Origin: Spinacia oleracea
Taxonomy: Eukaryota; Streptophyta; Magnoliopsida; Caryophyllales; Amaranthaceae
DNA length: 64,000 nucleotides
Direction: 5' to 3'
Assembly (NCBI RefSeq): GCF_020520425.1
Contig: NC_079487.1
Location: 127,060,385-127,124,384, forward strand
In this document: positions 5,052 through 44,648 of the stretch, in pieces
Layout: each line of letters starts with the position of its first letter
How positions within the stretch are numbered: position 1 is the first letter of the stretch
The notes under the pieces: model-generated
Seen by the model: the letters and a program-made list of their open reading frames with translations, nothing else
The model's database searches: none
Told to the model about the DNA's origin: nothing
Made by a program: the position numbers and the translations under genes

Positions 5052-7939
5052 GAAGAAAAACATCATTACCTTGATTATCAATTTTTTTTTGCCTGAAACC
5101 TCTTGATGCCTGCAACCTAGATTCACCTAGATATGTTAGAACTTTGGTCAAATACAAGTATATCATATTGATCAAGCTATTAGTAATCTGAAGCACACAT
5201 AAAGAAGAACCTAGCGAAAAGGCTGTCCTGTAAACTGGTAAAAGTGTAAAACAGTGTGTGGTCATATATTTAAGTTGTTTAGAGAAGACACCACAAATGG
5301 GTAGCTGCAAAGCAGATCACTAAACTAATTTTCAAACTATGTTATGGACTAGAGCTTTTTTTTTCCCAAGGAGTAAGAGCAATATCCTGTAGAACAGGAT
5401 ATCCTTTGCTAAAGTGTGTACCGGCATACGTATTCAGTAGAATCCTTAAAAAGGAACAACTCACGAGTGTACCATTTAGGATAACATGGATTAGATAGAC
5501 CTAATGTTACAATTACTGGCCAATCTTTATTTAGTGCTTTTAAAGCACCTTTTCTGAGGTCCAAAAGTTTCATAAATATCTGGTGAGTGTAAGAATAGAA
5601 TCTAGCTATTAATGTTGAACTGTATGTGAACTGAATTCTATAAGCCATGCCTGCATGTTATCTTTGTCTTAACTAAATGCAAGAAAAAGTCCATAATGAT
5701 TAGTACAATATGACCTCCATGATGGGAGATAAGAAACTTTAGGACAGACTACAGGCCACCGGTTCAGCATGTATAATAAACAAACTAGCTAAAGCTTTGA
5801 ATCTCTAGCAACCTTACTTATGTTAAAAGAGCCATTTCTGAAAACTCGAACTCGATTGTGTTCAACTTGAAAGGTAACACACTTCTAATTTCAAATTATT
5901 TCTATTTGAATTACTTGGGGGGGAAAAGGGGAAAAGAAATTTCCTGCAAGTGATCCGAGATCAAGCTTGGCTCAGACTCATTATTTCATAACCATGTCTA
6001 GGTCAAATTTAACTTTACAGCTCGATTGAGCTAGATCTTAAGACATTAACTCAGTTAAGCCAGGTCTGCCTTTAGGAACATCATGAAACATCTAATTTAT
6101 TCAACACACAGAAGATCTAGGCTAGTCACCAGCTTCTATTGAATGTTTGACAAGGTAGAACCGTAGAAGCATGCACGCGTAACAAATTGAAGGTCAGGGG
6201 GAATAAAAAATATAGACAAGGGTTGGTAGAGGAGATAGTGTCATACAGCTTCCCTGGAGTAACTTGGATTCAATAAAGTCCAAGCACTCATTTATTTTGC
6301 TGGTCTGAAACTTTTTAAAATGGAGCTTGCCATCGAGAATAGGATAATTCTTGGAACTAGTTTCAAGTCCAACCTCCTCAAGTCGGACACTGTTTCCAAA
6401 ACTGTTCTCTAAACAACCATCTTCTCTTGAAAAATATACCAACTTGATAAGAGTACCTACAGATAGAAGACAAGCATTGCAAATAACTGCATTAAAGCCA
6501 CATACATGCCTTTTAATGAGAAGCAATGATACAGATCTCCTAATAAAGCGAAATCATCTTAAAAAACAAATGCTCCTTCAAGAGGAGAAATAATATCAAT
6601 GAATGGAAAGTCAGTCCAATGTAAGAAAAATTAGTATATATCAATTTTCTTACAGGTATTATTGACAAAATGCAAGTAATAATGATGCAATTTTCTAATA
6701 ATGAACATTCAAAATAATGTGAGTAATTATGATCCATTGTTTTAAGTTTCTAATTGGAAAGAGTTACATGCAAAAGGTCTCCTCTAGCCTTGCCCCTGCA
6801 ATTGCAAGGAGACTATTTCTGTTAAATGGTTAGACCCTTGATCCGAATAGTAAAAAACCAACTCACTCCCCCACTACTTCGCTGAAAAAGAGAAGTAGCA
6901 AAGAACAGTTCAATGAGAAATGAAAAAGTCAACTACAACCAAAGTCGAAACATTGCCTATTACAAAGTCTACCAATTTCGTTGAAGATGTTCTATTTCGT
7001 AGTGTATTTTTAGCTACGGCCCCTAAAATTTGTATATAATTGTATAAATTTCATACTATATTTGCTTAATTCTTCTACTGCCCCCCTCGTAAAAATGTCC
7101 AAGGTCTGCCAATAGAAAAACATTACAAGGATATAAACACCTAAACTAACACAATAGTTACTTGTAAGCATGATCATAAATTCATAAAGACTTGTAATCA
7201 CTAGAAGTCGTAAAGGCAATAATTTCAACTTCGGCTTATAACAACTCAAATCAAACGTCTCTCTTCAGTCTCAAACTACTTAGTCTTATGCTCTGATCTC
7301 ATTTTTCTATGTTATGTCTGATTTGGTCTAGGCTGATTTTAACAAGAATAACGTGAAGAGAATTAATTCATTGTTAATTCAAAGGTCAAACAAAATATGG
7401 CCTTTTCAACCTTAATCAAGAGGTTAAGCATTATCATATCCACCCAGAACTCACCCCGAATCCGGATTAGCCCTAAGGGTGAACCGGTGCTAACACCAAA
7501 AATTATCATATCTAGCTTAGATGGTAAATTCGGGGATTGAAATCATCGAATCTCGTCTACATCACTACTCAAGTACTCATTCATTCATTATACACCACAA
7601 AGAAACAAAAGAGTATTGAGTTGACTACCCTTAGTTGTACTCTTGGTAGGTGCTACCCAGTTTAGTTGGTAAATTCGACCTAGGATCGAATCAGACTACA
7701 TAACTGCCCTTTACAAATGGGCTCTAGCAAAAAAAAAAACTACAAATTACCAAAATATATCAAATTCGAGCTAGAAAACGCATCAAAATTCAACAATTAT
7801 ATTCCCAACTTCACAAAAGAAAATTTGAAACAAAAATAGAGAGAAATTAAAAACCTCCAATATCAAGAGCCCAAGGAGAATTGTGATCATATGAATCAAA
7901 ATCATCAATTTCGACGCTGCTGCAACTTTGATCCTCCAT
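1481..7939 (-). CDS. PANK: Type II pantothenate kinase, first seven exons (partial, runs off left edge)
   Basis: Phosphorylates pantothenate with ATP, the committed step of coenzyme A synthesis. I joined exons by frame and GT/AG borders: 7939-7855 (ATG at 7939), 6456-6247, 5116-5070, 3952-3836, 2701-2582, 2391-2297, 1571-1481. They give 255 uninterrupted codons ending in phase 0. The nucleotide-binding start DIGGTLIK is at residues 26-33. Then come IKATGGGAYKYADLFKEKFG, LLVNIGSGISMIK, VSGTSLGGGT and DMLVSDIYG, in family order. The second AG of a tandem acceptor (5118-5117) is the one that keeps frame for exon 3. The rest of the kinase fold and the stop lie left of base 1, so the kinase-only form cannot be told from plant PANK2 with its fused DUF89 phosphatase. 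Oddity: exon 5 begins AVPCEAF where I recall the family having Arg-His in place of Pro-Cys. Intron 3 holds a (GA)n run and intron 1 a SINE-like fragment. Confidence 0.9.
4994..5049. repeat. (GA)n microsatellite, about 28 units, in a pantothenate kinase intron
   Basis: Perfect GA dinucleotide run lying 20 bases beyond the donor of exon 3 (5070) of the kinase gene. On the minus strand it reads as CT-rich intron. Open frames of repeated Leu-Ser across it are artefacts of the repeat. A likely polymorphic marker. Confidence 0.95.
7441..7500. repeat. SINE-like 3' fragment in kinase intron 1
   Basis: The segment CCGGATTAGCCCTAAGGGTG through GCTAACACC is nearly identical to the tail of the SINE at 38159-38320 (about 45 bases shared) and is likewise followed by an A-rich stretch. 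I see no matching left half or clear target duplication, so this is a fragment. Confidence 0.6.
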
Positions 7940-17257: not shown

Positions 17258-19766
<2,509 letters not shown>

Positions 19767-20760: not shown

Positions 20761-21080
20761 AGGGGTACCGGAAAAAATTGCGTGGTTTAATTGTGATTAC
20801 GGAAATACCCCTTGAGATGTGATTGAAGAAAATGTGAAGGGAGGTGAATCTTGGGGTTGTTTAGCCATTAACATGGTGCCACGTTTGATTTGTAGAACGA
20901 CAAATGGAGGGTCAGCTGCATTGGTGCTCAATTGGTCAATGGAAGTTTGATTCGTATTGGAAACTGAATCCAAATGATGCTTCCATTATTTGACCTTTGA
21001 ATTTTACTCCTTTGTACAGATTAGGCCTGTTCTTTTTTTTTTTTTTTTTCTTAATTTTAGTTTCAGGATTTATTTGTCAA

Positions 21081-21140
21081 TTCAGTTCAGTTCAGTTCAG
21101 TTCAGTTCAGGAGCATTCAGTTCAGTTCAGTTCAGTTCAG
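21081..21140. repeat. (TTCAG)n tract, left copy
   Basis: Six TTCAG units, GAGCA, five TTCAG units, then a run into TTTAATTTAA and (TAA)n up to about 21173. The same order, TTCAG run, GAGCA, TTCAG run, recurs at the right end of the retroelement. Confidence 0.95.
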
Positions 21141-21199
21141 TTTAATTTAATTTAATAATAATAATAATAATAATCCTCTCAAAAACAGGCGATTAGGGC

Positions 21200-22015
21200 A
21201 CGATGTTTACGTGCGTTTAAGGCTCCCTCCTCGTCGATCATCCAGGGATCTCCGGCGTCGGCGTCGGTGTGCCGGGGTCAGGCGAGGGCGGTCAGGTGTC
21301 AGGCGACGGCGTTCAAGCGGTTTCCAGGCGGTTTCGTGGGGGTTTTCGCAGGTTGTTAGCAACGATTTTCGCAGCCTTTTCCGGTGGTTAAGCAGGCATT
21401 TCCGGTGGTTTTCAGGGGGCTTATGTGTCGGCGGTTTTCAGGCATTTCCGGTGGTTTAGCGCGGCTTCAGTTTCAGGTTCGTGGGTTCGTCAGTTCGGCA
21501 GTTCGGCAGTTTCAGTTTGGGTTTCATTTTGGGTTTTCAAACATTTCCGGTGGCTTTTCAGTTGTTCGGTGGTTTGGGTTTCAGTCTGGGTTTCAGTTCC
21601 GTTCGAGAGTTTCAAGTGCGTTTGTTCGTAAGTTCGTGGGTTGTTCCGTTTCAGTCTGGTTCGCAGGTTGGTGTTGCGTTTTGGTTTTGGTGTTGCAGTT
21701 TATGTTTTTGGTGTTGCAGTTTGTGTTTCGATCATTTCCCGGCAATTTGGAGATCACTTTGGGGTTCTGTTTCAGTCGTGGGTTTCAGTTTGGTGCTCAG
21801 CTTCATTTTGGGGTTCTCTTGGGCGTTTCGATCTTCTCTTGTGTGCAACAACCGTGATTGTTGTTCGTGAGTGTTTTGTTCACTTGGGTGTTTTGATCGT
21901 GAGTGTGCAACAACCGTGAGTGTGTTCTCTTGGGTGATTTGTCCTCTTGGGTTTGCTGTGTGGTGTTCGTTGGTGTTCGTTGGTTGAAGTTACTTTTTGG
22001 TTGAAGTGCTTTTTT
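21200..22015 (+). other. G/T-rich leader of the retroelement with short internal repeats
   Basis: Strongly depleted of A, with overlapping open frames in several phases that look non-coding (Phe/Val/Ser/Gly-rich in each). TTTCCGGTGG occurs four times (about 21377, 21398, 21444, 21543), and TTTCAG, GTTCG recur throughout. Likely 5' UTR/promoter of the element. Confidence 0.6.
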
Positions 22016-25000
22016 ATGGCGGCTTCCGTAGAGAAGTTTCATTGCCCTTTTGTGGGTCTTAGCGGGTGCCAGGATGGAGGTGGGCGTGGTTTGGTGAGGA
22101 GTTCTCTGATCACTCACTTACGTGATCGACATTGTTGCACTGGTGTGCGGGATGTAACCCGTCATTCCCTTACTACCAATTTGCAGGTTTTTACTACGGC
22201 TGAGGTGACCTTTCGTCGTATGGGAATTTGGTTATGTGGAGATTGTTTCAAGACGCATACTCATCGTATTAGGTGTCGTCATGGAAGTGGTTCTAGTACG
22301 GTTTTTGTGGACCCACCTGATTCTGGGGATGGTACTATTCGTTTTACTCTCTACGGTATTCAAAAACCGCAAGCTCCTGCTTCCGAGCTGTCTACTTCTG
22401 TTGCGCCTCGAGAACATCATTTTTCTTTTGATGTTGCTCTTCTAAACACTTTATGGTCCAAGCGGCTGCGTTCTGTGAAATCCATCCCTCCCAAATGTCG
22501 TTTGGGTTTTTCGCGAGTTCTGAAAGGGGCGCTTGATAAGGTGATTTGCAGGCCAGATGACATCGCTTGTTGGGTTCAGTTGCTCGTGTTACCTCTTTGT
22601 GCCCTCAAGACTTTTTCTCCACGAAGTAATCGTGAGTGTTCCTCCGGCGTTAGGCGGCGGCAACAGGAAGAGAGTATCACCTCTGCTATTCGTTCTTGGG
22701 GTGTGCCTGGTGGTTCTGAGCAACTTGTCATAGACACATTGGCTAGTGTGTCTCCCCCTCTATTGGATGTTGACGACGACCATGGTTTGGCGGAGCGTAA
22801 TATTAAGCAATGCAAGAGAAAGATTTCTGACGGTCACTACACTGCTGCCGTTAGGGTTCTTTCTTCCTCAGATTATGGGCTTTCCGCGTGGTACTTCGTG
22901 CGGTAGAGATGGCTTGCGTGCTCAACACCTTTTGGATTGCTTGGGTGGTGCTGCTGTAGCTGTTTCTGATGAGTTGGTGGATGCTATCACTCAGGTTGTT
23001 AATCTCTTTCTTGCTGGAAAGTGTCCCGCTGAGCTTGGAGGATACATTGCTAGTGCTCCTCTTACGCCACTTATTAAGCCTGGTGGGGGTATTCGGCCTA
23101 TTGCCGTGGGCACTATTTGGAGGCGCCTTGTTTCTAAGGTCGGGGCAGCTTTGATTGGTCCGCGTTTAGGAAACTACTTTGGAGGTCTTCAGTTTGGAGT
23201 TGGGGTTCCAGCTGGTGGTGAGGCCAGTCTCCATGCTGTCAATCGGTTGGTTGAGGCTCGTGGGGCTGATGTTGGCCTCTCTATGTTATTGGTGGATTTT
23301 CGGAATGCGTTCAATTTAGTTGATCGTTCGGCTTTGTTGCGTGAGGTACGGCTTCATTGTCCTGCTCTTTCGCGTTGGGTTGAATTCTGCTACTCTTCTC
23401 CAGCGCGGCTGTATTATGGGGAGCATACCTTGTGGTCTTGTCAGGGTGTACAGCAAGGGGATCCTCTCGGCCCTTTGCTTTTTTCTCTGGTTCTACATCC
23501 ATTGGTGTGTCGAATCAGAGACTCATTTGATCTATCTCTTCAGGCTTGGTACTTGGACGATGGCACTATCGTTGGTGACACTTTGGTGGTTGGACAGGTC
23601 TTGGAGTTGATTTTGGAGGAGGGTCCTCATTTAGGTCTCCATGTTAATGTTGAGAAGACGGAGGTTTTCTGGCCTTCGGAGGACCCCCGCAGTCGTCTAG
23701 AGGGTGTCTTTCCTACGGATATTGCTCGTCCTGCGCTTGGTGTTAAGTTGCTTGGTGGCCCAGTCAGTACGGATTCCTCTTTTTGTAAGGAGTTGGTTTC
23801 GCAGCGTGTGTCGAAGGCTGTTGTGTTGATGGATGCTGTAGCCAAGCTTAATGATCCCCAGTGTGAGTTGTTGCTTCTTCGTGCGTGTACTGGAGTTTCT
23901 AAACTCTACTTTGCTATGCGCACTTGTCCGCCTCATCTTTTCGAAGCGGCCCAATTATCCTTTGATGTGGCTTTGCGGGCTTCTTTAGAGCGCATCGTGA
24001 CTGCTTCGGGACCTGGTTTCGGTGACTGGCAATGGCGCCTTTCCACCTTGCCTTATTCTTATGGAGGATTGGGTGTTTATTCAGCTGGTGATGTTCGGCA
24101 TTATGCTTTTCTTGCATCCCGTTTGCAGTCTTCTGGTTTGCAGGATTCGCTTCTTCGGCTTTCAGGTGTTGATGGTCCGGGACCGGCCTTTGACGATGCT
24201 CTTGGTCTTTTCAATAGGACCGTGGAGACCGACCTTATGCGTAGCCCTAGTGAGATCGCTGCCCCCAGACTCATGAAGAAATTGGCAGACATATATTTCA
24301 CGAAGGTTACTGCTGATGCGGAATCCGCCTTCTCCTTATCTTCGCGTCTTGTTGCCCTATGGAAATCACAGCAGGGGGATCACTCCTCGGCTTGGTTGCG
24401 GGCAGTCCCCATCTCGGGGTTAGGCCAGACTATGAACGGTAAGACTTATCGTTCGGTTCTTTGCTATCGGTTGGGTATTCCGTTGTTCTCTTATTCGACG
24501 CCGTGTTCTGCTTGCTCTCGGGTTTTCGACGGGGACATTTATGGGGATCATGCCGTGTCTTGTGCTGGGATTGTGGGTATCAAACATCGGCATAATGTTG
24601 TTCGTGATACCCTTTTGGATATTTGCTATCGGTCGGGGATTTCTGCTCGCAAGGAGGTTGATGTTGGGCTGACTAGTGAGAGTGATGGAGCTCTTCGTCC
24701 TGCAGATATACTGCTTTACTCATGGGATGGTGGTCTGGATGTGTGTGTTGACTTGACTGGGTCTTCCCCTATGACGCAATCTGGGTTGTCAGGCTTCGTT
24801 CCGGGTCGGGTTGTGGCGGTTGCAGCGCAGCGGAAGCAGAATAAGTATGGGGCACGTTGTAGGGCTTTGGGTTACGGTTTCTTCCCTTTTTCCTTCTCTT
24901 CTTTTGGGGAATTAGAGAAAGGGGCTGTTTCTTTGCTGAAGCGGGTCCAGGCGTACTCCAGGGCTCAAGACATTGGGGCACGGGCAGCTGCCCACATTTT

Positions 25001-25076
25001 CAGCAGGATCGGGTTCGCCATAGCTAGAGGAGTGGGGGCCCAGATTGTATCTCGGCTCCCCTCCAACTTCTTGTAG
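22016..25076 (+). pseudogene. Retroelement polyprotein: zinc finger, reverse transcriptase, CCHC, restriction-like nuclease (one frame break)
   Basis: The 5' part, 22016-22867, begins MAASVEKFHCPF and has a C2H2-like finger (Cys-x7-Cys, then H-x4-H in THLRDRH), then CGDC with later His/Cys. Frame changes between 22868 and 22880. The 3' part runs from about 22881 (FPRGTSCGRDGLRAQH) to TAG at 25076. Counting from the 22746 Met: IRPIAVGTIWRRL about 116-128; RT motif A VDFRNAFN 183-190; motif B GVQQGDPLGPLLF 234-246; catalytic YLDD 269-272; a thumb-like region follows. Then a CCHC knuckle (C587, C590, H602, C606) and RHNVVRD, RKEVDV, RPADILLY (651-658), DVCVDLT (665-671), consistent with a PD-(D/E)xK fold. 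The missing RT-proximal linker suggests a deletion rather than a single-base slip. Similar proteins are common in plant annotations as unnamed RT-domain proteins (recalled, not searched). Confidence 0.75.
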
Positions 25077-25109
25077 TTCATTTGATCTTTGTAGCTTGTT
25101 AAGCTTGTA

Positions 25110-25558
25110 ACGTTTTATAATAATTATTATTATTATAATAATAATAATTATTATTATTACTATATTATTATTAATATTACTTATATAATTATTTATATTT
25201 ATATTATTATATTATTATATTACTTATTATTTATATTTATATTTATATTTATATTATTATATTACTTATTATTATTATTATTATTATTATTATATTTATA
25301 ACTAATTATTTATTAATATTATTTATTAATTAGTTACGGATTATTAGTTATTAATTATTTAGTTATTAGTTATTAAATATGAAATATTATTATTATTAAT
25401 ATTTATCATTTATTGTAATTATTGAGTAATCAATTACAGATTATTATTATTATAATTTATTATATAGTTATTTAGTTATTAATTAATAATTATTATTTAG
25501 TTATTATTTAACATTTTTTATTATTAATTATTAATTATTTATTTCGGTAATATATTCT
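25110..25558. repeat. TTA/TAT-rich low-complexity tail
   Basis: Almost pure A/T with long (TTA)n and (TTTATA)n runs, starting about 35 bases after the RT stop. Fits an expanded microsatellite 3' tail of a target-primed retroelement. Confidence 0.85.
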
Positions 25559-25679
25559 GTTAAGTTAAGTTAAGTTAAGTTAAGTTAAGTTAAGTTCAGT
25601 TCAGTTCAGTTCAGTTCAGTTCAGTTCAGTTCAGGAGCATTCAGTTCAGTTCAGTTCAGTTCAGTTCAGTTCAATTCAG
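25559..25679. repeat. (GTTAA)n then (TTCAG)n tract, right copy
   Basis: About seven GTTAA units pass into eight TTCAG units (25595-25634), GAGCA (25635-25639), then six TTCAG, one TTCAA and one TTCAG. Same order as the left copy at 21081-21140. Confidence 0.95.
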
Positions 25680-25699
25680 CTCTAAAGAACAGGGCCTTA

Positions 25700-34700: not shown

Positions 34701-37700
34701 ACGCTCCAACTCCCCCCGTTCATGCCTAGGGACCTAGATAACATAGGATGTTCCACTAATATTCAAAACTCTGTAGGTTGTGAACTTCTAACAGAAATAA
34801 CCATACAATATGTGACCTGTCTACATCAGAAAGAAATTGATTACCTTTCCAGGTGTGGAAGAAGGAAATGCTCCATCAGCTTCTTTCCCCAGCCACAGCC
34901 TAAGTTTTTGCTTTCCCGTTCTAAGTTGCTTCTTGCTGTTAAAAAGAAGAATTGTTGCTCCACCAATAAGCCCTTCCTCTTTGCAGCAGGAAACATCCCA
35001 TACCTAAATTTTGAGAAAAGGCAACCAACAAACAGATCTCAGACACAGGATAAGACCAACCTGGGAAAATTATAATTGAAGGCATACTTCTTCCAAGAAC
35101 CGAAGGGAAAAGACAGGGAACCACAAAAGAGTAAGTGCAACAAAGAAAACTAGCCTAATGGAAATGAAAGCAATTCATTCAGATTTCAGACAACCAGAAA
35201 TCAACAACTTGCAAGTGGCAACTATACTGACTGATCTACAGAAGGATACTGAAACTTAGTAGCATCACGAAGCAAACTCATGGTCCATATTATTCAAAAC
35301 AGCATGCTGGGGGTTGATCTCAAACAAAGTATTATGTCAGAACACAAAAGAAAACATATCCTTGTTGCATTTTGACTGATAAGGCAGAAAGGTGCAAACT
35401 AGGGAGTATATAGTGTAAAGCTACAGTCTCATTTATGGTTCCTTAAAAGACAAAACATACACAGAAAATAAGACACATGCACCTAAGCATTTAACAGGAG
35501 AAAAGGTAAGAAATAACTTGGTACAACATACCACGTAACAATTTCCATTAAAAGAAATAGAAGAAACTAGAAGGTACAAACTGGAAGGTACTGGTTACCG
35601 TAAAAGAAAGTTGTGAGTGTGCAGTGAGATCCCGATATTTGGTACTCAGTGTAATAAGCTCACTCCAGCAAAAAGACTGACCAGATTCCAGCCTACAAGA
35701 ATGTTTTACATCACAACAGTTAAGAACTTAAGCTTAGAAAGAAGGGAAGGGGACAAAAAAATGCAATATTGTTTTGCAACCAATTAGTAATAAGCTGTCA
35801 AAAAATGTTTGGAGATTTGCTGAAAACAAAGGCTCTGTTTTGTTCGACTTATTTTGACTTATTTCAGACAAAGTAAGTTCAGATAAGTTCAGTAAAGTTC
35901 AATTAAGCCAAGGTAAGTTCAATTAAGTCCAATTAAGTTCAGATAAGTTTAGATAATATAAGTTAGCAAAAATAAGTTTTTTGAGACATTTTCACACACA
36001 ATAAGTTTTTTCCGGATAAAATAAGTTCAGATAATATAAGTTCAGACAAAATTAGTCGAATTGAACGGAGACTAAATGGAATCATACTATACATCAATAA
36101 AATCTGAATATAACACAGGAATACAGGGAGCAATCAAAATTTCAAACTCTCATCTTGTATCTTTGCCCGAAACCAAAAAGAATTTCACCACTTAAAAAGC
36201 AATTACTCCGTAGTTTTTATCCAAAGATACAGAGACTTACAGTCACAGCAGCAAACAAAGAAGCTTTTCAATGACAGAGACTAACAACAAAACCATACAC
36301 AGGACTACATGTAGGTTGTCCATGCCAATAAAATTACAGCAAGATCATTGCTAAAGGAAATTTTCCTACTAAAACACTAATGGAATGATCCACCAAATAA
36401 TCCATATCAATCACAGATCAGAAGGCTTACTGTCTTTTCTCAAGAAAAGATACAAAAAATATCCGGGTAGAAAGCCCAACACGTAAGTGGACTCTGATAG
36501 TTAGGACAAATGAGCAATGCATGGGTCATTTGGAATACAGCTGCACTGCCAGCTCCCTGCATAGTATAATGTGGGCCTATGTGGCTGCTTCCAAGAATTG
36601 CATGGCCGCAGGTGTGTGCCATGTACTGGAGCAATTTCACACTTTTGACTTGTTTCAAAATAAATTTCCAGCTTGGTTTTACAAACTTTAGCACCAGTCT
36701 TTCAGACACTATACGGGACATAACTTGAAAAATAACTGTAATCAGGAAAAATAGTGTGTAACTACGGAAGAGGATTTTTTTTAATTGGATCAAAGTCTCC
36801 TAAGAGAGTATCCTAGTGAATTCCAAAGAAGACTAGATTTGTTGGCAATAATCAGTAAGAAGGTTGGAGCTTTTAATTAGGGGTATACTGGCTAACCAAT
36901 GTTGCTGTACAATATCAATATGAATTAGTGCGTACAACATTATCGGCCATTCTAAAATATCAATGCAGCATCGAATAGACGAATACCTCTTTCAACATCA
37001 ATATAACATTACAAAGCGTTTCATAGTATTCAATACAACATCAAGTAGAGCTTCACGATCCCAATGCAATTCTTTTTTGAAATAGACCGAATTTGTAATG
37101 CGTATGAAAATGACTAAAAATATTTAGACTTAGTATCAGGGAGACTGAGAGAGTATAAGACAGTAAGACCTGGTTCTCATAGGTAGTCCAAAAGAAGCAC
37201 CATCGACGTACAAGGCGCATTCAACATAAAGTTCCCCCCTCCTCTCATCTGCAGCATAACCAGTGTCTACAGCAGCTTTGATCACAAACACGCAAATAAT
37301 AGTGGCGATTATTATAACTTCAGCAAAATCTCTTATCAAACAAATTCTACTTGCTTCAGAAAAAATTCCCTAACTCTTATCACAAATCTAAGTTCAAAAT
37401 TGTATCATAATTAACAAAATTGTCTTGCAACTTAGCAGCAGGAGGAAATTAAGACTTTGAAATATCAAATTTATGATGATTTTTTAGGTCCCCTCCAATG
37501 ATTTTTTAGATATCATAAGGCACTGATGTACATGGAATTCAATCCAAGTTCTTGTTCGACCACCTAAGACTTTTACCCAACTAAGCTAGTTCCCATCGAC
37601 TTGTAAACTAATTTCCATCAGAAAACTAGAAAATGGACTCGTTTGACTAAAATTGAGCAACTGATTTCCGAAAATTAACAAAAAAAAAAAACAAATTAAC

Positions 37701-42654: not shown

Positions 42655-43163
42655 TCACTCGATGTCGATACCAGTGATAACTATGGAGTCCGTTCCTGAT
42701 TTAGGGACAATAGTGACCTGAATAGAGTCGTCGTCGGTGGCATCAAGGTCTTCAAGGAGCTGGTTCAATGCCAACTTGAGGACAGTGTTCTTACCCATAT
42801 CCTCCTCTGCCATGTGGCTCATGTCACCTCCACCTCCACCTCCACCATGGGTTAAGCTGGTGAAACTTCCAGCATACTCAAGATTGATTTTAGTCTTATC
42901 CTCGGGTTTATAATCAGTTCCATCATTGATATAAACATCAAACTTGATAAAATCCTTTGACTTTCCTAATTTGAAATTTATAACAAGAACCTCCTCATGT
43001 TCCAGCTTGTCTTCCTTTGTTCTAGACTTTTTAGGCCTATCGACCTTCGTTTTTATGACCGAGTACTTTAAGGGCAAAGGGAGCATCACCTTTAATTCCG
43101 TTAAAACCTTTTTAACTAGAGAAAACGTTCTCGTCTTGAGTCGTCCCCCCAGCAGCGGTTGTC

Positions 43164-43196
<33 letters not shown>

Positions 43197-44574
43197 GAGT
43201 AATTGACATCCATGGCAGTTCCTGATCTTCGTACTTGTACCCGAGTCTCTCCGTGTCGAAACTATCCCTGACATAAACCCTTACAGGGTTAGCGTTTTCA
43301 TCGTAGAAGTAGAAATACGCATTTCGATAATCATCGTATTCAGGCGTCTTAGGGAAGTTACCCCCATGGAGAACGTCAGTCCAAAGACTCCACATTCTAT
43401 CTACATTAGAGTGATGACAATAAAACAAAGGGTCACGTCCAGCAGACCAGAAGGCACCCATGTCTTGATTACCCTTAATAGTATTACTTCCGGTCCATAC
43501 ATGGACCGAGTTGTGAGGCATACGCTCAAGAATCCCAGCACCACTTACATCCCCCTCCATTTTGTCTCCTGCACGGTACGGACTCCCTAAGAAGAGCTCA
43601 GCCTTGTTTGGATCGTCGGAAACACTCGGGTACACCATCGCCTTACGCATAAGCAATATGTTTTCTTCGTATTGATCATCTTCATTGACATCGGAACCTT
43701 CCTCGTCGGATACAAACGACAAATTCATCATCTTGTCAAGGTGGTTTGTATTCCGGTTAGGATCAAAGAGGGGAGAATCCATTTCTTTGAATATCTCAGG
43801 GATACGCATCCCATCACGATGATCCCAATTCCAGTAAGGCAAGGCGAAATCAGGTTTGTTGATCAACTTCCCAAGGATCCTCTCGTAGAAATAGAGATAC
43901 CATCTATGGAAAGAAGGGAATAACCAACTAGCGTGGACCTCAAGTCGAGTATCATTGTGACCGAGTACCGGATAAGATCCATCACAATAAGCACAATGTA
44001 CCCTAGCTTGTTGCATGTGGCTGCGAGGGTCGCTCATTGGGAGTGACTTCATTATGGCAATTGCTCTTTTATAATCATTTAGCCATTCTTGGTCCTCGTA
44101 GGCTTTGTGTGCTGGACGCCGAACCTTCTTCACGTGGTTATGATAGTTCTTAAACTCGAAATCTTTCGTTATGTTGAGATCGAAGGGTGGAGGGCAGCAA
44201 TGATCACCAACTGACCCGTCCCATAGGGCGTCACTCAGGGTACATTTTTCCACGTCAGGGAGAATGGGGGCAGCTAGGGTATTATAGTAATTAGCTCCCT
44301 CACTCCCTAAGGCAGCATACATGCCACCTAAACCAAGGAGTATATTTCTCCTATCTAATAAATACGGTGTGTTTGTGTTAGGGTTTTGAATGAGTTGAAA
44401 TTGGTTATTGTCATCGTTACCATTGTTGTTTTTTGTTTGGCACGAGACTTTTCCGTTTACAGATCGAACACCACGGTGGTGATGAGCGGAAAGTTGGGGT
44501 GTTTTGGGGAGAAAAGGGTTGTTGAGGAGGATGGAAGTAGTGGTGATAATGGTCGGAGAAGAGAGAGTTGCCAT
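42655..44574 (-). CDS. PPO: Polyphenol oxidase (catechol oxidase), chloroplast lumen
   Basis: Oxidises o-diphenols to quinones with O2 through a type-3 dicopper centre; the basis of tissue browning. 639 codons, no intron. A Ser/Thr/Asn-rich transit peptide leads to a twin-arginine lumen signal (RRNILLGLGG, 75-84); the mature enzyme probably starts near residue 100. CuA: H193, H214, H223, with C197 placed to form the thioether with H214. CuB: H354, H358, H388; the gate residue F375 fits the catechol-oxidase pattern. LPWM (453-456) sits in the place of the DWL motif, and KFDVYIND marks the C-terminal domain. Between them is a Gln/Arg run (460-471), and near the C terminus a seven-Gly run. From memory it matches the spinach enzyme almost throughout, which is my main clue to species. 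A TATA box lies about 75 bases upstream. Confidence 0.97.
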
Positions 44575-44648
44575 TTTGCAACTAGCTACTAGCTAGAGGG
44601 TTAAGATATTTGTTGTTGAGGTGGGAGTATTGTGTAAACCTTAAACGG

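Follow-up and report, generated by a model that had tools for sequence, protein, structure and literature searches.

Do flowering plants harbour long interspersed nuclear elements (LINEs) that carry a restriction-like endonuclease (RLE)? The question is raised by a locus of the spinach genome (Spinacia oleracea, NC_079487.1), analysed here as a window of 64,000 nt to which all coordinates refer. On the plus strand of this window, positions 21175-25114 are occupied by a LINE, i.e. a non-LTR (long terminal repeat) retrotransposon, whose body ends on the 3' side at about 25114. Very probably, this copy has decayed and belongs to a young LINE family of many copies, whose members encode a single protein with finger-like N-terminal motifs, a reverse transcriptase (RT), a CCHC knuckle and an RLE. 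A review from 2022 lists only the L1 and RTE superfamilies among LINEs of land plants (PMC9033089), and a survey of Spinacia repeats puts LINEs below 0.1% of the genome (PMC7840529). Five RLE clades (CRE, R2, R4, NeSL and HERO) are named in the Utopia paper, four of them mostly target-specific and some families with microsatellite targets (PMC4640811). A more far-reaching reading, with a probability of roughly 0.45, is that flowering plants hold a deep RLE-LINE lineage of their own outside these five clades, which lives in TAA microsatellites and lengthens them, making its future targets. The basic design would be the ordinary one of an RLE LINE; the host is apparently new, and the lineage perhaps so. 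No plant RLE LINE was found among the listed titles and abstract openings of open-licence papers.

The open reading frame (ORF) of the element starts with the ATG at 22016. Because 128 nt present in other copies are missing from the window copy (gap at about 22870), it is frameshifted, and one gene is split into an N-terminal frame (22016-22903) and a frame running from the RT to the C terminus (22734-25076). A preliminary description, made from the bare sequence, had counted codons from 22746 and let the element extend over 21174..25565. As for the ORF, its RT and RLE parts do continue in the second frame of the frameshifted copy, but its beginning lies further upstream. As for the extent, a LINE is indeed located there, but its body is confined to 21175 to about 25114, followed by a degenerate TAA/TTA tract. 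The motifs YLDD, RHNVVRD, RPADILLY and DVCVDLT and the knuckle all lie on the plus strand where the same description had placed them, and the C2H2-like finger that it had proposed could be located as a C...C...H...H cluster at 22043-22135. KQNKY at 24834-24848 is an addition to the motifs which it had listed. The 296-residue N-terminal frame had no Pfam match, whether to a finger, a Myb domain or any other model.

Evidence for a multi-copy family came from searches of the host genome (894 Mb), in which only the best candidates were scored. The best 62 of 2941 tblastn candidates, window included, were all 97-100% identical, and 52 of these 62 places contained no stop in 721 codons. An open frame of 1063 codons, with start and stop in common, was present in 13 of 20 fetched copies, so that the intact copies which the preliminary description had suggested looking for do exist. 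Four of the 20 were 5'-truncated (L011, L013, L019 and L023) and three carried stops in the RT-RLE region (L020, L026 and L028, the last one 5'-truncated as well). The 19 stop-free RT-RLE regions shared 95.1-99.9% pairwise DNA identity (median 98.7%). When its 3'-terminal 255 nt served as query, the best 40 of 1148 candidates matched at 99-100%, ten of them, window included, being identical; since only the best candidates were scored, these 40 3' ends represent the nearest copies and not a sample. Such near-identity (the 98.7% median and the ten identical 3' ends) indicates recent activity, and the family looks recently active from its sequences. More distant relatives were also detected, namely fragments of family A' (66-76% identity to the window protein), family B (L060, 56%) and family C (L061, 44%; L062, 42%). 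Fragments of families C and B, used as queries, yielded 150 matches of 1234 candidates and 152 of 1452, respectively, in lists that overlap and mix families.

What sets this protein apart is its C terminus. The published RLE signature of LINEs consists of an RH located at the first helix, a D/E residue that follows the first strand and a PD-(D/E)XK variant, all behind a CCHC knuckle, with the first K of KX2KY as the catalytic lysine (PMC5678591). In the window protein, RH, E, PxD, D and KX2KY all follow the knuckle in this order between 24504 and 24848 (RHNVVRD 24588-24608, RPADILLY 24696-24719, DVCVDLT 24738-24758, KQNKY 24834-24848). The ordered pattern, composed after this protein had been seen, matched 20 of 20 fetched family-A copies and none of the 616 ORFs that served as controls, with 76,895 residues in total. 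In five diverged sequences and fragments, the D...D pair and K..KY were kept in all five, the P of PxD in four, the CCHC knuckle likewise in four, and RHN was seen in three. This region is also under purifying selection: the pooled ratio of nonsynonymous to synonymous polymorphism (pN/pS) within family A was 0.22 (19 stop-free sequences of 22), and over 193 C-terminal codons the nonsynonymous divergence (dN) between the window family A and a family-A' fragment was 0.147 against a synonymous divergence (dS) of 1.27. Given the open frames in 13 of 20 copies, this pN/pS and the 20/20 versus 0/616 pattern count, the RLE-LINE signal is not due to chance. This sequence signature supports a C-terminal RLE, any enzymatic activity of which is presumed. 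The restriction-like nuclease of the preliminary description is thus supported: the diagnostic residues published in PMC5678591, including the K of KX2KY, occur in order, and most are kept in relatives of as little as 42-44% identity.

RVT_1 was the only Pfam match to the RT frame (4e-14), which gives one LINE-type RT within a single ORF, considering the 1063-codon frame described above. Among 12 family members, RVT_1 was matched in four; a CoiA_N match in two of the 12 was weak (best E-value 0.01) and was not used. In NCBIfam, the only models matched were those of group II intron RTs, with scores well short of the cut-off. R2 retrotransposon proteins were the best matches among PDB sequences (2.4e-6, or 3e-9 with a 12-row profile), with L1 ORF2p ranking next in the profile search (3e-7). 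An RT tree was built from 13 rows, i.e. three RLE families of this genome, three R2 elements, human L1, five plant L1 elements of the same genome and one group II intron RT; having no rows for R4/Dong, CRE, NeSL, HERO, Dualen or RTE, it is too sparse to name a clade. The three RLE families formed one group with a long stem and 100/100 support, and the best tree excluded them both from the plant L1 rows (84/92) and from the L1 group (77/84), while their joint group with R2 was supported only at 58/30. Judged from this tree, the RT forms a separate lineage, which the best topology places outside L1 and whose sister group the 13 rows do not settle. This agrees with the separate plant lineage suggested by the preliminary description, with the reservation that the approximately unbiased (AU) test does not reject a grouping with plant L1 (p 0.173) or with all L1 (p 0.377).

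The endonuclease of plant L1 and RTE elements is of the apurinic/apyrimidinic endonuclease (APE) type. One might regard the spinach element as a plant LINE of L1 or RTE type that has become aberrant, its C-terminal motifs merely happening to resemble an RLE. The AU result would allow this, and the CCHC knuckle occurs in APE LINEs too (PMC5678591). Still, we consider it very improbable in view of the separate 100/100 clade outside the plant L1 rows, the purifying selection on the C terminus and the failure to find an APE-type domain in the ORF, whose N-terminal frame had no Pfam match. L1 and RTE elements share with the spinach LINE their occurrence in flowering plants, and differ from it in carrying an endonuclease domain (EN; PMC9033089) rather than a C-terminal RLE.

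Next to its RLE, the spinach lineage is marked by its insertion sites. Junctions were examined in 21 copies, i.e. the 20 fetched ones and that of the window. At the 3' junction, TAA/TTA repeats were present in 21 of 21 copies, and none was located at the 28S rDNA site of R2. The 5' junction showed TAA in 19 copies, TTA in one (L019) and neither in one (L013), a count that is circular for seven of the 21 (L010, L012, L015, L016, L022, L024 and L025), since in these, for lack of a homologous 5' untranslated region (UTR), the TAA tract itself was taken to mark the 5' end. In the remaining 14 copies, where homology to another copy defines this end, TAA was found in 12, TTA in one and neither in one. 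As a background, the other 59,350 nt of the window contain three TAA runs of at least four units and none of at least five. Copies L026 and L019 lie in different members of one repeat family (flanks about 94% identical), where they occupy the corresponding microsatellite in opposite orientations. When the flanks of L026 were joined, the best 40 of 502 candidate paralogous places all spanned the join at 95-98%, and the 12 fetched empty paralogues all read GAAATAAA(TAA)3-8TATAG. The insertion at the filled site is flanked by 8 TAA units (left) and 18 (right), against 3-8 in the empty sites, from which it follows that insertion also lengthens the microsatellite. As for target-site duplications, the two flanks of a copy shared 7.7 nt on average and mismatched pairs 6.6 nt, which is what a cut inside a repeat would give. 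Six of the 20 fetched copies follow the 3' end and TAA tail of another copy (L009, L010, L012, L022, L028 and L027, the last at a distance of about 25 nt), and two have another copy after them (L025, and L020, where it is a piece about 36 nt long).

These junctions could also be explained without true target specificity, if TAA were nothing but the 3' tail of the element and the TAA at the 5' end arose by microhomology or slippage. Such a view accommodates the TAA run serving as a tail in 18 of 20 copies, the greater length of the filled L026 tracts compared with their empty paralogues, and the insertion of L013 and L024 without a long TAA target. It does not explain, however, why TAA adjoins the 5' end of the 5'-truncated copies L009, L011, L023 and L028 (5 nt between in the last) and TTA that of L019, nor why all 12 fetched empty L026 sites already contained (TAA)3-8. 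We therefore hold it to be improbable, if less so than the L1/RTE explanation, and prefer a lineage that inserts into TAA repeats.

Apart from the AU result, several observations speak against a TAA-targeting RLE lineage. On the side of the nuclease, the strict ordered pattern was found in only two of the five diverged sequences and the core pattern in one; the knuckle is spaced C-x2-C-x11-H-x3-C, compared with the published CX2-3CX7-8HX4C (PMC5678591); the last 218 residues matched no PDB sequence up to an E-value of 10; no RLE-type Pfam model matched the window frames or the 12 members; and silent sites between families A and B are saturated in the RLE, so that no dN/dS is available there. 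On the side of the target, besides the seven circular 5' ends, the 5' end of L013 lacks TAA, and four copies (L015, L017, L019 and the window copy) carry TTA beside or in place of TAA units on the 3' side. Empty sites were examined for one insertion locus, L026. A clear exception, as regards target-site duplications, is L024, both flanks of which carry a 17-nt direct repeat, ATAAAGATCACGCAATT, whose left copy is separated from the 5' TAA tract by 81 nt of extra sequence. Here, a transcript started upstream possibly brought foreign sequence along (5' transduction) and was inserted where TAA is scarce.

Among known systems, a close parallel is Dong of the silkworm Bombyx mori, an RLE LINE found in TAA repeats (PMC3774820, PMC5678591). 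Its host is an animal, and a self-cleaving ribozyme resembling that of hepatitis delta virus (HDV) is located at its 5' end (PMC3774820), none being detected in the plant LINE. R2 of Bombyx mori, Taeniopygia and others has the same order of an N-terminal zinc finger, RT, CCHC knuckle and C-terminal RLE with RH, PD, D and KX2KY (PMC10499050, PMC5678591), and R2 proteins gave the best PDB matches mentioned above; R2, however, targets 28S rDNA, whereas the plant LINE resides in TAA repeats. Some HERO families and Togen are likewise RLE LINEs with microsatellite targets; Togen differs in being a NeSL-related element of fish found in (TG)n, and both are set beside the plant LINE by description only (PMC4640811).

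The resemblance to Dong deserves separate consideration. Dong belongs to the R4 clade, and the spinach element could be a true R4/Dong member near silkworm Dong, perhaps acquired by horizontal transfer from an animal. In favour of this are the residence of Dong in TAA repeats (PMC3774820) and its place among the RLE LINEs (PMC5678591). On the other hand, the HDV-like ribozyme reported for Dong and R4 was not recovered: Rfam detected none in seven loci or in window 21100-25600, though a divergent one could be missed, and a descriptor matched 1 of 16 sequences compared with 19 of 320 shuffles, which lends no support. A consensus RNA fold of seven 5' ends contained a single weak stem of 7 bp, in one pair of which both bases had changed. 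Furthermore, several families of 42-76% identity coexist in one genome, which favours a long stay in the plant. No relatives were found outside the host genome in the viral_contigs, genome_contigs and phages collections at the search sensitivity used, and the plasmids collection gave one distant group II intron RT; plant genomes as such are not part of these collections, so that nothing follows from them for other plants. Public databases may contain plant protein records with a similar RT that lack annotation. Membership of R4/Dong seems unlikely to us, although less so than the other two alternatives considered here.

We propose a model to explain how such a plant lineage could persist in TAA repeats. 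It builds on what was observed directly, namely the gene anatomy, the RLE signature, purifying selection, TAA flanks, empty TAA sites at one locus, 5' truncation and nesting. According to the model, the endonuclease would nick a (TAA)n microsatellite in its TTA strand, and element RNA ending in (UAA)n, because transcription presumably runs into the element's own TAA tail, would pair with the nicked strand. The RT would then copy the RNA by target-primed reverse transcription, often halting early and thus producing 5' truncation, and the other DNA strand would be closed inside the repeat. TAA tracts would thereby be left on both sides of each insertion as possible later targets, which could account for the accumulation of head-to-tail neighbours. 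Should this be correct, a young multi-copy RLE family would revise, at least for the spinach genome, the picture of plant LINEs drawn in the papers cited above, in which they comprise L1 and RTE only and, in Spinacia, make up less than 0.1% of the genome. It would also supply a plant example of RLE enzymes, a group in which those of R2 are under study for inserting genes (PMC10499050), and would allow a direct test of mutual feeding between a LINE and a microsatellite.

Table 1. Features of the LINE copy and its surroundings, in window coordinates
Feature	Positions	Strand	Remarks
Short repeat bounded by terminal inverted repeats (TIRs), with (TTCAG)n arrays; host of the nested LINE copy	21024..25696		Ends GGCCTGTTCTTT / AAAGAACAGGGCC; 76-nt direct repeat, 95%; related copies exist
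TTTAA/TAA tract	21143..21174	+	Abuts the 5' junction; (TAA)7 at 21153
5' UTR	21175..22015	+	Begins CCTCTC after the TAA tract, likewise in L017 and L026; motif GGCGATTAGGGC at 21188
N-terminal ORF part	22016..22903	+	RT part in another frame owing to the 128-nt deletion near 22870
Finger-like motif C-x7-C...H-x4-H	22043..22135	+	Also present in family-B fragment L015
Second Cys/His cluster CGDCFKTHTHRIRCRH	22235..22282	+	Counterpart in family-B fragment: CGGCFCSHTFSKNCKH
Reverse transcriptase domain	23076..23672	+	Extent of RVT_1; RPIAVG 23091, DFRNAFN 23289, GVQQGDPLGP 23445, YLDD 23550-23561
CCHC knuckle CSACSRVFDGDIYGDHAVSC, C-x2-C-x11-H-x3-C	24504..24563	+	Sequence motif; cf. the RLE-LINE knuckle of PMC5678591
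Putative restriction-like endonuclease region	24588..25073	+	RHN 24588, KEV 24651, RPAD 24696, CVDLT 24738, KQNKY 24834; motif definition from PMC5678591
Short 3' UTR	25077..25114	+	Terminal sequence GTAACGTTTT
Degenerate TAA/TTA tract	25115..25543		At the 3' junction

The window copy is itself nested in the TIR-bounded repeat of Table 1, related copies of which exist without the LINE (L075 and L077). In another one, L076, the TTCAG array gives way to TTTAA and then to a TAA microsatellite, beyond which lies other sequence without match to the LINE; this transition has the look of the left junction of the window copy. TTCAG-type minisatellites occur also at 35874-36056 of the window, and in the TIR repeats of L075, L076 and L077 the number of internal TTCAG units varies.

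Several unrelated types of 5' UTR were associated with near-identical ORFs (L010, L012, L014-L018, L021, L024, L025, L027 and the window copy). Most of these have in common only a GGCGATTAGGGC-like motif near the start, followed by GTTTAGGGC or GATTAGGGC. Exchange of 5' UTRs may have led to this combination. At L018, two tRNA-like sequences of 54 bits each, 857-927 on the plus and 5531-5601 on the minus strand, flank the insertion in inverted orientation; these are perhaps heads of short interspersed nuclear elements (SINEs).

As for neighbouring genes, the first exon of a small GTPase gene, presumably of the ARF type, lies on the minus strand at 19608-19763, and its start codon has the LINE upstream of it at a distance of about 1.4 kb. 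An open frame of 645 codons was found on the minus strand at 42655-44592, and its product looks like a polyphenol oxidase.

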